In this document: piece after piece, positions 34,020 through 39,824 of the stretch
Position numbering within the stretch: the stretch's first letter is position 1
How the letters are laid out: each line of letters starts with the position of its first letter
Source: Cuniculiplasma divulgatum
Lineage (GTDB): Archaea > Thermoplasmatota > Thermoplasmata > Thermoplasmatales > Thermoplasmataceae
DNA length: 64,000 nt
NCBI GenBank assembly: GCA_031200235.1
Contig: CP133595.1
Location: 1,302,001 to 1,366,000 of the forward strand
Direction of reading: 5' to 3'
Position numbers and translations under genes: made by a program
The notes under the pieces: generated by a model
What the model was told of the DNA's origin: nothing
Database searches by the model: none
The model's input: only the letters and a program-made list of their open reading frames with translations

Positions 34020-34204
34020 TGTTATCATAGTCATGAAGATATACTGCAATATTTACCTGTTGAATTATAGAATTATGAATTAAATCACAGTCCTGGCAAT
34101 TTTATGCAAATCAACTGCACATGCTAATCGGTTTGGAGTTTTCTGGCAAAGAGCACTACCTTAAGGATGTTATTAAATTCATTTTTCGACTTAGACTGCT
34201 GGAA

Positions 34205-35188: not shown

Positions 35189-35604
35189 TTATCCAGGATT
35201 AATTCTTAGCCCGAAATTTGCTATTTCCTTTTCCTCTGCTGTAAATTCGGAATCAAAGGTTACAAATGTGTCTGCCTCCAGCATCATGCTGGCTGAAATA
35301 TGTAATATGTCCAGAGTTTTCATTCTTATCCTGACAGCGATTTCGATGGCGTTGTTGATGATTTTGTCCATGTTTACCTCAGGTACTGCAACGTTAATTT
35401 CAGGTAAATAGTCTATTAAGGCTTCAATCTCATCCTCGCTCAGATTCGTTGATCTGGAAAGAACGGATTTCAACTCCGAAACAGTCACCGGGTAAATGTA
35501 ATCATTGACCTTTATTGTCAAATATTTTTACTGCTCTTGCATGATTGACATCTCTACTGTTGAGAAATTAAATTATGACATTTGTATCGATATAATTAAG
35601 TCTA
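35189..35604 (-). pseudogene. vapC: VapC-type PIN toxin, inactivated
   Basis: Right after the VapB gene the minus strand encodes NYIDTNVII, a typical PIN N-terminus with the first catalytic Asp, but it hits a TAA at the next codon, continues in frame as FLNSRDVNHARAVKIFDN, and then needs a frame change near 35525 to enter the remaining PIN sequence (VTVSELKS, LDILHISAS, FVTFDSEF), which is open to 35189. No ATG precedes the domain. So the toxin carries a nonsense codon, a frameshift and no good start. The intact downstream part alone could only begin at TTG 35521 and lacks the first Asp. Confidence 0.8.
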
Positions 35605-35853
35605 ATCCCGGTCCTTTATAGAACTTTCCGATAGGTCATTAGGCAGCTTCGGAAGGCCTCTTTCCTTCCATACTCTAATTATGGCTTGGCTTTTCTCCTT
35701 CCGTTCTACTGTTTTCTTTGCGCTTTGCATCCCATTCTGCATGGTCCATCTCAGGGCATCTGCCTTGCTGGTAGCAAGTTTATACTTTATTAATTTGTCA
35801 ATGAGATCAGATGTGTTATCATCTATTCTTAACGCTATAACGCTTGATACCAT
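35602..35853 (-). CDS. vapB: VapB-like ribbon-helix-helix antitoxin
   Basis: An 83-residue protein with an N-terminal ribbon-helix-helix (VIALRIDDNTSDLIDKLIKY, then ATSKADALRWTMQNG) and a charged C-terminal tail that would wrap a PIN toxin. It lies directly before the broken VapC gene and would have overlapped its start. The open frame is complete. Its promoter region abuts the IS256-family element. Confidence 0.8.
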   Translation of the reverse strand: MVSSVIALRIDDNTSDLIDKLIKYKLATSKADALRWTMQNGMQSAKKTVERKEKSQAIIRVWKERGLPKLPNDLSESSIKDRD

Positions 35854-35923
35854 ATGCTTTCATACGTAAATATTCTATAAATTCTTTCTTAACTATTTCG
35901 ATTTATCTCTTTCCTATGGCTAC

Positions 35924-37191
35924 ATAGCGTCCCGAAAGTTGTGTACTTATAAGGGATACCTCTTCTGGAACATTTCCCTGATCTCGTCCTTGCATTTATA
36001 GAATCCCCTCAGAGATCTCTGTGACCATGCCTCATTTATCTCAGCCGACCTGAGATAGATGATCTTCATGGCGCTCTCCTCTGATGGCAGAGAATCTATT
36101 ATCTTTATCCTGCGCCGTATTTCCTTGTTCATTCGCTCAATCAGATTTGTGGAGTGTATGGATCTCCTTATGGATTCAGGATAATCATGGTACTTGAGCA
36201 ATGTACCCAGGTTCTTCTCCATGTTGTACACAGGCTTTGGGTATTTCGAGGACCATTTATTCTTGAACTCATTGAACTGATTCAGTGCTTCTTCTCTGGT
36301 GCGGGAGAGGAATATTCCCTTGAGATCCGAATCAATCTCATTGCGATCCTGCACCCTCACATGTGATTCAAGATTCCTTGATGCATGTATGGTGCATAAC
36401 TGGAAATCAGCCCTTGGATATAATTGTCTGATCTCCTCCTCTATTCCAGGCAATCCGTCTGCTATGAACAGTAGTGGTTCCTCAACGCCTCTTTCATGGA
36501 GATCCATGAGTACATTGCGGTATGCAATATGGTTCTCAACAGGATTCATGTAGAATCCAAGGATTTCATAATTCCCTGATTCCCGTATTCCCATTGCAAA
36601 TATGACACATTCCTTCTGCACAGTTTCCCTTCTAAGGGAGAAGAACACTGCATCCATGAATATGGCAATGTACCTCTTCTCAAGTGGCCTTGATCGCCAC
36701 TTGCTTATTTCCGGAACTGTTATTTCCGTGATCCTTGATATGGTGGATTTGCTGTATTTATTGTGGAATAATTCTTCCAGTATTTCAGCCATCTTCCTTG
36801 TTGATATTCCCTTTGAATACATGGAGACAACAAGATCGTCTATTCCAATGTTGCGCTGATATGGTTCGAATAAGGCTGTCTGGAATTCATTGCTGCGGTC
36901 CCTTGGAACCCTGAGATCATCTATCTTCCCATATCTTGTACCCATGTCACTCTCGTAGTATCCATTCCTCTGGCCTTCCCTTTCCTCAAGGAAGGCCTGA
37001 ATCTCTCCCTTCATGAGGGATTCCATGAAGCCCTTCACTGTGGTTCTGACTATTTCAGATATCTTTTTATCCAGTTCTTCCATTGTTTATTGCCTCCTGG
37101 TTGGTTCCTGGAGGCATCCTTTTCTTTTTCATGAAATTTCTCTCATGATTATGATCCTGATCTCTTATTTACACAAGATTCGGGATACTAT
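35924..37191 (-). mobile_element. IS256-family insertion sequence
   Basis: About 1.27 kb with imperfect terminal inverted repeats. Left end ATAGCGTCCCGAAAG with TTGTGTA (35924-35946) matches the reverse complement of the right end ATAGTATCCCGAATC with TTGTGTA (37169-37191). It encodes one transposase. No clear target duplication is visible in the flanks (CTATGGCTAC left, CGTGTTGAGG right). Confidence 0.8.
35947..37083 (-). CDS. IS256-family (Mutator) transposase
   Basis: A 378-residue DDE transposase. The catalytic acids are seen in IFMDAVFFSL, FIADGLPGIEE and STNLIERMNKEIRRR, and the CTIHASRN stretch is the conserved C/H motif of the family. The N-terminus has a DNA-binding domain. The frame is intact from end to end, and length is typical, so the element may be active. 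ATG 37083 is followed by Glu-Glu-Leu. Confidence 0.95.
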   Translation of the reverse strand: MEELDKKISEIVRTTVKGFMESLMKGEIQAFLEEREGQRNGYYESDMGTRYGKIDDLRVPRDRSNEFQTALFEPYQRNIGIDDLVVSMYSKGISTRKMAEILEELFHNKYSKSTISRITEITVPEISKWRSRPLEKRYIAIFMDAVFFSLRRETVQKECVIFAMGIRESGNYEILGFYMNPVENHIAYRNVLMDLHERGVEEPLLFIADGLPGIEEEIRQLYPRADFQLCTIHASRNLESHVRVQDRNEIDSDLKGIFLSRTREEALNQFNEFKNKWSSKYPKPVYNMEKNLGTLLKYHDYPESIRRSIHSTNLIERMNKEIRRRIKIIDSLPSEESAMKIIYLRSAEINEAWSQRSLRGFYKCKDEIREMFQKRYPL

Positions 37192-37513
37192 CGTGTTGAG
37201 GGATTTCTTTAAGATAAACAAGGAAGGAATGCCTTCACATTAACCAAACTGCTAAAAGTCTAAAAAATTACTTTTTATCGAAATGCTTGCTCAAATTAGA
37301 GATCCTTGCCTTTAGCCAAATGTAGTCCCTTTTCTCAATGAGGTCGTTGTCTTCCAACTTATGGGTCATCTCAATAAGTTTTGGCTCCATAGAACTCCAC
37401 TTGTACTGGATCCAATCAGATTCAGACAGCATGAGCATGGAGAAACACTTATATAGGGGGAGAGTCAAGGGAGGGGGAGTTTTTAATCTCCTCCTAATTC
37501 CAGAGGTGACCAT

Positions 37514-37816
37514 ATGGTAGGAAAGGGTACATACAGGACAAAGGAGGAGAAGGCAAGGATCGTCATGGAAGTCCTGTCCAATTCGTCCACAATATCAGAG
37601 ATCTGCAGGAAGTACAATGTTGCCTCATCCGCACTGTACAGGTGGAGGGATGAATTCATTGCAGGAGGCACAGCTGCAATGGATCATGGCAGATCCACCG
37701 TTGAAGCATCCCTCCTCAAGGAGATAAACGAACTCAAGGGCATAATCGGGGAACTGACAATAGCAAACGAAACTCTAAAAAAAATTCAAGCCACAAGGAG
37801 AGGTGGGAAGCCATGA
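37514..37816 (+). CDS. IS3-family transposase OrfA
   Basis: A 100-residue helix-turn-helix DNA-binding protein: KARIVMEVL, then ISEICRKYNVASSALYRW as the HTH, and a leucine-zipper-like tail (LLKEINELKGIIGELTIANE). GAGGTGA at 37503-37509 is its ribosome-binding site. A run of eight A (37777-37784) near its end and an ATGA overlap with OrfB suggest that a fused OrfAB can be made by -1 frameshifting. Confidence 0.93.
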   Translation: MVGKGTYRTKEEKARIVMEVLSNSSTISEICRKYNVASSALYRWRDEFIAGGTAAMDHGRSTVEASLLKEINELKGIIGELTIANETLKKIQATRRGGKP

Positions 37817-38685
37817 CTGAGCTCATTGCAAATGGCCTTTCCAAATCCAGATCAGCTTCCCTTACAGGCATTTCCAGATCCATGATATATTACAGGCACA
37901 GGGAAAGGAAACCAGAATACGATGCTGATCTGGAAAGACGCATTTCCGGTATTGTGGAGGAAAGGCCATCATACGGCACAAGGAGGGTGGCAGCAATGAT
38001 CCGCCGCTCCGGTTTCAGGATCGGCAGGAACCGTGTACGAAGACATATGCGCCACATGAACCTTATTGCAGCACATAAGAAGGCTCACAGGAAACATGTG
38101 CCCAGGGCAATCGTTGTTGCCAGACCCAACATCATGTGGGAGACGGATTTCACAAAGATATACATTGACAGCGAGGGGTGGATATATTTCACCGCATACC
38201 TTGATCTCTGCTCAAGGAAGATAAAGGGATATCTCGTATCCCGTATGTCCCGAACAGCTGAAATGATGGAGGCTCTTGACAATGCATTACTTGGTACGTT
38301 CCCTGATATGAATGTGACCGGTCTTATCATACGATCGGATAACGGCTCTCAGTTAACGTCATCTGGTTACGAGAAGCATCTCAGAACACTGGGGATAAAG
38401 CATGAGACAATACACGCACATACCCCTGAGGAGGATGGCCACATTGAATCATACTTCGGGAGATTCAAGGATGACTACATATATACAAGGGAATTTGTCA
38501 GCCTTGAGGACTTCCGGAAGCATATTGAATGGGCTGTATCCGACTACAATACAAAGAGACCGCACTCATCATTGAATTATATGACACCGGAAGAGTTTGA
38601 ATCCGCAATATTGAATGAAGATTTCAAAAAGAAGTGGTTAGAAAAGGAAACTGGGAGGTACAAACATGTTGAATTACTCGAGTGA
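37813..38685 (+). CDS. IS3-family transposase OrfB
   Basis: A 290-residue retroviral-type integrase. The N-terminal HTH_21-like part (ERPSYGTRRVAAMIRR) is followed by the DDE core: WETDFTKIY, IRSDNGSQLTS and EEDGHIESYFGRFKDD, with 35-residue spacing between the last two. Intact. Its ATG overlaps the OrfA stop; upstream in the same frame it is open back to the A8 run, as needed for a frameshift product. Confidence 0.95.
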   Translation: MTELIANGLSKSRSASLTGISRSMIYYRHRERKPEYDADLERRISGIVEERPSYGTRRVAAMIRRSGFRIGRNRVRRHMRHMNLIAAHKKAHRKHVPRAIVVARPNIMWETDFTKIYIDSEGWIYFTAYLDLCSRKIKGYLVSRMSRTAEMMEALDNALLGTFPDMNVTGLIIRSDNGSQLTSSGYEKHLRTLGIKHETIHAHTPEEDGHIESYFGRFKDDYIYTREFVSLEDFRKHIEWAVSDYNTKRPHSSLNYMTPEEFESAILNEDFKKKWLEKETGRYKHVELLE

Positions 38686-38879
38686 ACTCAGAAAACTGTC
38701 TGAAGGAAGTGGGTCCAGATCACCACTCTTTCCTTATTTCCTTCCTTATGGCTATCTGTTCCTCGGTCTCTTTCTTAGGCTGTTCTTTTGCCATATGATA
38801 AAATTCAAATGCGTTATTTAAACCGTATTTTACTGGTTTTGGACAATTTTATTGTTTCCATTGACAATAAATTTTTAAT

Positions 38880-39527
38880 TTGCCTGACCTTGATCAACCA
38901 GTGGAACATTATAACTCTAAAAAGGCAGCTGAAGATTATCATAGGGTATTCACCAAAGATGCTGACAATCCAGAATCAAAGAGAAAAGCAATTCAAAGAT
39001 ACGTGAAGTTCACATCAAAATTGAAACAAGGAGGCCACATTCTGGATGCGGGTTGTGGCACTGGCAGATTTGTGCCTTATTTTGTCAAGAATGGTTTCAC
39101 AGTTACAGGTGTGGACAGCTCAAGCTCAATGATTGAGTTAGCTTCCAAGAACAATCCAATGGCTGAATTCAAGGTCATGGATATACGCCACCTGGATTTT
39201 GTGTCTAATTACTTTGATGGTGTATGGAATATTGCAACCTTGCTTCATTTGGATGAGTCTGGTGTCAAACTTGCACTGCAAGAATTTAAGAGAGTTTTGA
39301 AGGTTAATGGAATCCTGTATATTGCCACAAGAACAAAAGACAAGAGCATAAGCATTATAGAAGAGTCAACGGAAGGGGGAAAGATGGTTGTAAATTACTA
39401 TTCACCTGACAAGTTGCGGGAGTTGTTAGCGAATTCGGGTTTCGAAATAATAGAAATCAACGTTGAACCAGATGATTACTCAAGGCCGTTCGATTATGCC
39501 TTTGTACTTGCCATACCCTCAACTTGA
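38880..39527 (+). CDS. Class I SAM-dependent methyltransferase
   Basis: A 215-residue Rossmann methyltransferase: ILDAGCGTGRFVPYF (motif I), VTGVDSSSSMIELA (motif II), FKVMDIRHLDF, and a motif IV region DGVWNIATLLHL. No substrate domain recognised; small molecules are likely. The start is TTG 38880, with an ATTTTATTG element about 28 bases upstream (leaderless). It is AT-rich, like the surrounding accessory stretch, between an IS and tRNA-Lys. Confidence 0.85.
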   Translation: MPDLDQPVEHYNSKKAAEDYHRVFTKDADNPESKRKAIQRYVKFTSKLKQGGHILDAGCGTGRFVPYFVKNGFTVTGVDSSSSMIELASKNNPMAEFKVMDIRHLDFVSNYFDGVWNIATLLHLDESGVKLALQEFKRVLKVNGILYIATRTKDKSISIIEESTEGGKMVVNYYSPDKLRELLANSGFEIIEINVEPDDYSRPFDYAFVLAIPST

Positions 39528-39750
39528 GATATTGATGAAAGAAATTGTAGTCTTGTACGAACTGCTTCGAAGTCGCCATTAAATCCCTATTCCAACTTTA
39601 TTTAATTCTATTTAAATTTATTAACACAATTTCTTTCAAGCTGGTCTAATCCCAAACTCTCCCACATTTAAAATCAAGAGATGGATACTTTCCTGCAATC
39701 CTATAAAATTCCAACCAAGAAAATACTCATAAAAGTAAACTGGAACCAAG

Positions 39751-39824
39751 CGGGTCCGAGGGGGTTCGAACCCCCGACCTATGGATTAAGAGTCCATCGC
39801 TCTACCTAGCTAAGCTACGGACCC
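39751..39824 (-). tRNA. tRNA-Lys (anticodon CTT)
   Basis: Minus-strand cloverleaf: acceptor GGGTCCG/CGGACCC, D arm GCTT...GAGC, anticodon stem ATGGA/TCCAT with loop CTCTTAA (anticodon CTT), T arm GGGGG TTCGAAC CCCCT with one weak end pair, discriminator G. No intron or encoded CCA. Confidence 0.95.

Follow-up and report, generated by a model that had tools for sequence, protein, structure and literature searches.

An IS3-family insertion in a small gene beside a tRNA-Lys gene of Cuniculiplasma divulgatum, in a probable remnant of an integrative element

Introduction

The window analysed here comprises 64,000 nucleotides of the Cuniculiplasma divulgatum genome (GenBank contig CP133595.1, positions 1,302,001 to 1,366,000 of the forward strand), in which an insertion sequence of the IS3 family lies between two copies of the pentanucleotide CCACT. 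When the flanks of the element are joined with a single copy of CCACT, an open reading frame of 66 residues is obtained on the minus strand, in one frame only, with its start at 38794 and its stop codon ending at 37268. The locus therefore raises the question of whether the two flanking segments are the halves of a genuine gene and, if so, to what kind of genetic unit that gene belonged before it was interrupted. The initial annotation had read the arrangement as an IS3-family insertion between CCACT copies that splits a 66-residue gene, and this reading is borne out by the limits of the element and the in-frame junction of its flanks (Table 1); the span that it gave, 37268–38794, corresponds to the start and end of the gene but not to the limits of the element.

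Table 1. Features of the interrupted gene and its surroundings, in window coordinates.
Feature	Position	Strand	Remarks
PIN toxin gene	35189–35600	−	Broken by a stop codon and a frameshift
VapB-like antitoxin gene	35602–35853	−	Homologue of L056:4878–5129, which precedes a PIN toxin
Mutator/IS256-family transposase	35947–37083	−	Between the 3' end of the 66-residue gene and the antitoxin
66-residue gene, 3' part	37268–37401	−	Codons 25–66 plus stop; a single CCACT is assigned to the joined gene
CCACT target duplication, left copy	37397–37401		
IS3-family insertion sequence	37402–38722	+	1321 bp; assigned from ends, length, NF033516 and Pfam HTH_Tnp_1 and rve
OrfA	37514–37816	+	100 residues; helix-turn-helix, IS2-TnpA-like
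OrfB	37813–38685	+	290 residues; DDE transposase core
CCACT target duplication, right copy	38723–38727		
66-residue gene, 5' part	38723–38794	−	Codons 1–24
Conserved promoter region of the gene family	38795–38850	−	ACGGTTTAAATA; TATA-like by eye
Class I methyltransferase gene	38880–39527	+	Pfam; separates the promoter from the P' arm
P' arm of the integrative element	39602–39745	−	About 150 bp; arm-model match E 6 × 10−33, this arm being among the sequences from which the model was built
tRNA-Lys(CTT)	39750–39824	−	Integration target

The interrupted gene

An open frame of 66 codons is insufficient by itself to indicate a gene, since a position picked at random, on a randomly chosen strand, lies within an open frame of that length in 30% of cases in this window, and this frequency lends some credit to the alternative that the two segments are unrelated chance frames. 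The homologues of the joined protein, a search for which had been proposed as a check, nevertheless contradict this alternative: seven of them, in five genomes besides that of the window, show a gapless alignment over the junction, and the full-length ones cover both halves with no insertion or deletion at that point. The dN/dS ratio is well below 1, with values of 0.05–0.20 in all pairs with unsaturated dS and a low dN in the pairs in which dS is saturated, and both halves in the window show many synonymous and few other changes; in these counts stop codons are skipped, the copies in G019 and G051 (G051a and G051b) are partial and those designated G012b and G051b carry a stop. The junction-spanning homologues, which are decisive, and the low dN/dS indicate a real protein gene, and the chance-frame reading, already refuted by the homologues, retains a negligible probability. 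Homologues matching a single half had been named as grounds for refuting the gene. Copies that match one part alone do occur, but they belong to the same family in truncated form and for that reason do not refute it.

Eight of 101 related genomes, including that of the window, contain a match to the 66-residue protein. A profile search of the 77 genomes of the family gives 22 matches in 11 genomes (two of the matches being the halves in the window), and the same 11 genomes are returned when the 117 genomes of the order are searched, with no match outside the family. A scan of GTDB contigs locates five loci in three named records, namely UBA447 (DARE01000008.1), the uncultured archaeon ASS_A1 (CP009479.1) and JAJZJZ010000087.1. 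At least 61 of the 66 positions are present without a stop in four of the 22 matches (in G020, G012, G010 and G051), the copy in G010 reading from TTG. The gene is restricted to this family and mostly decayed. No relative was found in a scan of IMG/VR with the gene alignment, so a viral home is not supported.

The insertion sequence

Both open reading frames of the insertion sequence are intact, and its ends are imperfect terminal inverted repeats of the TG..CA type (TGTACTGGATCC and TGATCTGGACCC). OrfA matches HTH_Tnp_1 (PF01527) in Pfam; OrfB scores 218.6 bits with the NCBIfam IS3 model NF033516, against a cut-off of 160, matches rve and rve_3 in Pfam and has a D-(35 residues)-E spacing that is recognizable by eye in its translation. 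OrfB is in the −1 frame relative to OrfA, with the two frames overlapping in ATGA, and a run of eight A residues lies upstream within a stretch that is open in both frames; since the OrfB frame is open back past this run, a frameshifted OrfAB product is possible. Judged by its sequence features, the element is a member of the IS3 family with an IS2-like OrfA, which it resembles in the OrfA/OrfB layout, the helix-turn-helix OrfA, the −1 frame of OrfB with its slippery run, the DDE core, the TG..CA ends and the 5-bp duplication, target duplications in this family being short (3–5 bp); the difference lies in the host, which here is an archaeon of the Thermoplasmatales.

The element is the only copy found in its own genome of 2,006,340 bases. 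Matches to OrfB occur in 46 of the 101 Thermoplasmatales genomes searched, so the element is not unusual locally, and the four nearest relatives of OrfB are 84–89% identical at the protein level and 85–87% identical at the DNA level over the aligned parts. Among five related copies for which both ends were found, one (L026) has a 4-bp duplication and four (L020, L022, L024 and L027) have none, possibly as a result of recombination between copies or of assembly joins. The transposition event itself is ordinary. An open reading frame of 81 residues (37268–37513) starts inside the insertion sequence and continues in frame into the 3' part of the interrupted gene, and a protein in which IS-encoded sequence is fused to residues 25–66 could be made from it.

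Age of the insertion

The insertion had been described as recent on the grounds that its flanks show no other damage. Neither half of the gene contains a stop codon or a frameshift, and to this extent the description is loosely fair, but it is weakly supported, as 66 undamaged codons are too few to show that the insertion postdates the split from the nearest sampled congener. By a rough estimate, some 15% of changes on the scale of substitutions across 198 bases would disable the frame, and an undamaged gene would exclude only insertion ages above roughly 10% neutral divergence; 'recent' can be accepted only loosely because this bound is similar to the divergence of the flanks from the congener G001, which is 4–11% (89–96% identity). 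It is this limited power, with few disabling changes expected below the estimated bound, that leaves room for an older insertion with flanks intact by chance, as does the lack of the gene from the genomes searched in the same genus (G001–G004), because of which no empty site is readable in a very close relative. Given the perfect 5-bp duplication, the intact OrfA and OrfB and the undamaged halves, an older insertion nevertheless seems rather unlikely.

Attachment arms and integrase

The description of the target as a small unknown gene was correct, in that the gene is real and uncharacterised, but incomplete, as the gene probably lies at the att end of an integrative element that targets tRNA genes. 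Within the extracted sequence, which reached no more than about 1.5 kb to either side and had the same flank for both sets, an intact tRNA gene is present at 11 of 22 loci of the gene versus one of 29 loci of the IS3 OrfB (Fisher P = 1.3 × 10−4). Truncated copies of tRNA-Lys near copies of the gene extend from the anticodon arm (GGACTCTTAAT) through the 3' end into P', a conserved arm of about 150 bp, while at tRNA-Leu sites the repeated part is the 5' half and the P' arm is weaker but recognizable. A tRNA-Val target considered for G019 was dropped, the att repeats there being halves of tRNA-Lys.

The tRNA halves are preceded by a second conserved arm, P. A 30-mer from this arm, with up to three mismatches allowed, identifies 11 sites in eight of the 77 genomes (the reversed control gives none), and at all 11 a tRNA half follows P after about 6 bases, with five halves of the Lys type in the sense orientation and six of the Leu type in the antisense orientation. 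Thirteen of 15 bases are identical between the cores GGACTCTTAATCCAT and GGACCCTAAATCCAT, and this similarity might account for the use of opposite halves of two tRNA genes by one type of attP.

Thirty matches to a model of promoter plus gene start are found in the loci examined; in 25 of them an arm lies upstream on the same strand within 1.5 kb, whereas none has only another geometry and five have no recognizable arm; the distance from the arm to the promoter and gene start is 5–34 bases in eight matches. This count leaves out L063 (the same place as L080), L086 and L072, as well as the P-arm loci L120–L125 and L127–L129, which overlap other loci or were not needed (L119 and L126 being kept). 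Some of these loci had contributed to the arm and promoter models with which they were then searched, so that matches there arise partly by construction; block-shuffled sequence gave no matches.

A search for integrases of PF00589 found nothing close to copies of the gene. The relevant integrase belongs to PF16795 and was found through a 7-kb element in G040, which lies between tRNA-Lys and a P arm and in which the integrase is broken (128 bits). An intact integrase of 324 residues is present in G003, is 67% identical to that of G040 over the C-terminal part and starts ∼170 bases from a P arm and a Leu-type core; in G103 an integrase N-terminus is at the same place beside a P arm. G003 has no match to the 66-residue gene, and among the loci examined none combines the integrase, both arms and an intact copy of the gene. 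In the congener G003, the stretch L114:274–17534 is an element end that carries the intact PF16795-type integrase together with large open reading frames resembling, by eye, restriction-modification and other defence genes; the other end of this element is beyond the contig.

The island in the window

The promoter and gene-start model matches the window at 38850–38726, and in the family of tRNA-targeted integrative elements the 66-residue gene is the first to follow one of the arms. DNA homologous to the region of the methyltransferase gene, which here separates the P' arm from the promoter, adjoins an arm in G006. On the other side of the 66-residue gene, the VapB-like antitoxin gene has only marginal Pfam hits of its own, and the copy of this VapBC-like pair in the congener G001 is also damaged, with the break at the same place, so the pair probably died before the split of the two species. 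The IS256/Mutator-family element (35890–37200), of which the genome contains a second full-length copy (93%) as well as four partial matches, has no obvious target duplication by eye and sits where the homology to G001 ends (35886). This element may have deleted the far att site.

Uninterrupted copies of the gene are found at comparable sites. In G010 the gene is beside a homologous tRNA-Lys, P' arm and ribosomal-protein genes, and DNA similar to the antitoxin stretch of the window lies beyond it; in G020 it is at the tRNA-Lys site between tRNA-Gly and ribosomal genes, with the arm split by an IS66-like open reading frame (named by eye) between the tRNA and the gene. The block 35886–39726 is absent from G001, homology stops at tRNA-Lys in G003, and in G004 only about 440 bases separate the end of homology (near 34075) from tRNA-Lys, at a contig end. 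The genome of the window has no P arm by the 30-base pattern search and no match to the G040-type PF16795 integrase, and no second att copy is found as a self-repeat within the window. The lack of the P arm and of this integrase indicates that the island is a remnant, the membership of which in the family rests on the P' arm, the promoter and the gene.

Taken together, the insertion and its setting in a tRNA-targeted element constitute a probable reading of the locus. The IS3-family element moved into a small gene next to the att site of what is probably a decayed integrative element at tRNA-Lys(CTT); the event duplicated CCACT and knocked out the gene, adding one more dead copy to the family. 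Integration would proceed by crossover in the anticodon loop, catalysed by an SSV-type tyrosine recombinase, with the element carrying a replacement half of the tRNA, and the excised circle would have the order integrase–P–core–P'–66-residue gene, in which the two genes would point outwards from attP. The 66-residue protein would be an accessory or regulatory protein borne by the element and expressed from the P' promoter. The gene would be dispensable once the element is fixed, which would account both for its decay and for the toxin–antitoxin pairs that occur behind the same promoter. A more extensive proposal is that a single attP family (P and P') recognizes the anticodon arm of tRNA-Lys forwards and that of tRNA-Leu backwards through near-identical cores, and that it has a modular P' slot in which one conserved promoter serves either a lineage-specific helical-hairpin protein that is a partner of the integrase or interchangeable toxin–antitoxin pairs; this is speculative and, as it stands, unlikely.

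Comparison with known systems

In SSV-type elements attP lies inside the integrase gene. The present family resembles these elements in the PF16795 integrase of its relatives, in the location of the core at the anticodon arm and in the use of tRNA halves as att repeats, but differs in that the core in G003 lies outside the intact integrase gene. Tycheposons and satellite elements are small tRNA-anchored cargo units with partial tRNA repeats that form arrays and often have no integrase of their own, and at the level of this general description the small tRNA-anchored cargo arrays seen here, which are also often without an integrase, are similar.

According to the accessible text of PMC8371274, within the archaea only integrases of the pTN3-like class use the 5' half of tRNA genes. 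The present family shares the use of the 5' half with the pTN3-like integrases of Thermococcales but differs from them in that the same P arm joins the 5' half of tRNA-Leu (six sites) and the 3' half of tRNA-Lys (five sites); one attP family using both halves would bear on that statement. Islands described in acid-mine archaea show a bias towards flanking tRNA-Leu and tRNA-Val genes and carry toxin–antitoxin cargo, while the present att pair, arms and small gene are not described in the accessible text (PMC12302457). No description of the 66-residue gene or of the P and P' arms was found in the accessible text of the literature searched. A set of small islands in a single archaeal family, with attachment arms that match between two tRNA genes read in opposite senses, would offer a testable system.

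Role of the 66-residue protein

The AlphaFold model of a homologue is a two-helix hairpin (helices 12–41 and 47–64, pLDDT 88), and a fold search with this model in the PDB and BFVD finds nothing that reaches E 0.001. Variants of Rop are among the weak PDB fold hits (E 3.0 and 3.2) but were set aside, a two-helix hairpin being too generic. The best match in PHROGs (E 0.01) is to a family of unknown function, a sequence search of the PDB gives nothing better than E 0.27, and none of the family and fold libraries searched (Pfam, NCBIfam, PHROGs, PDB and BFVD) names a function for the protein. The possibility that it is the N-terminal piece of a split integrase of the SSV type was dropped, as the gene has its own promoter and stop codon and the protein bears no resemblance by eye to an integrase N-terminus.

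That the gene lies next to P', with the integrase on the other side of attP, suggests that its product is accessory or regulatory in function, perhaps a directionality factor, and this role is tentatively favoured. Characterised archaeal integrases act without a directionality factor according to the accessible text of PMC8371274, and a conserved small protein beside attP would bear on that statement. The gene might instead be ordinary cargo gathered at tRNA hot spots and not part of the element machinery: most genomes are without it, most of its copies are decayed, the integrase-bearing G003 lacks it, and foreign gene clusters beside tRNA genes are known in the Thermoplasmatales (PMC2718499, accessible text). 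Ordinary cargo would, however, be expected to vary in place and strand, whereas the promoter and gene start follow P' in a fixed orientation, at the short distances given above for eight matches, at sites of both the Lys and the Leu type. A cargo origin is regarded as about as likely as an accessory or regulatory role, both being quite possible but short of probable.

Of 17 gene starts, mostly truncated, nine have an antitoxin-plus-toxin pair that begins, on the same strand, 28–142 bp further downstream, whereas L066 has an antitoxin-like open reading frame only, L083 a toxin-like one only and six have neither. When five of the nine pairs were scanned with Pfam, all five toxins scored above a cut-off (four PIN and one ParE); among the five antitoxins, two did so with an antitoxin family (VapB and MazE). 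At L062 a decayed copy of the gene is, by eye, followed by a toxin–antitoxin pair. These neighbours raise the alternative that the protein is a stability (addiction-like) factor and that either it or a type II toxin–antitoxin pair is encoded in the slot behind the P' promoter, perhaps for the same job. This is considered improbable, given that no partner gene is conserved by eye beside intact copies, that no toxin or antitoxin family matches the protein and that the six starts without either neighbour do not follow the pattern. A separate arrangement is seen at L064:161–4859, where four repeats of the tRNA-Leu 5' half occur at a spacing of 1.2–1.9 kb with toxin–antitoxin pairs between them, and this array resembles a cassette array.
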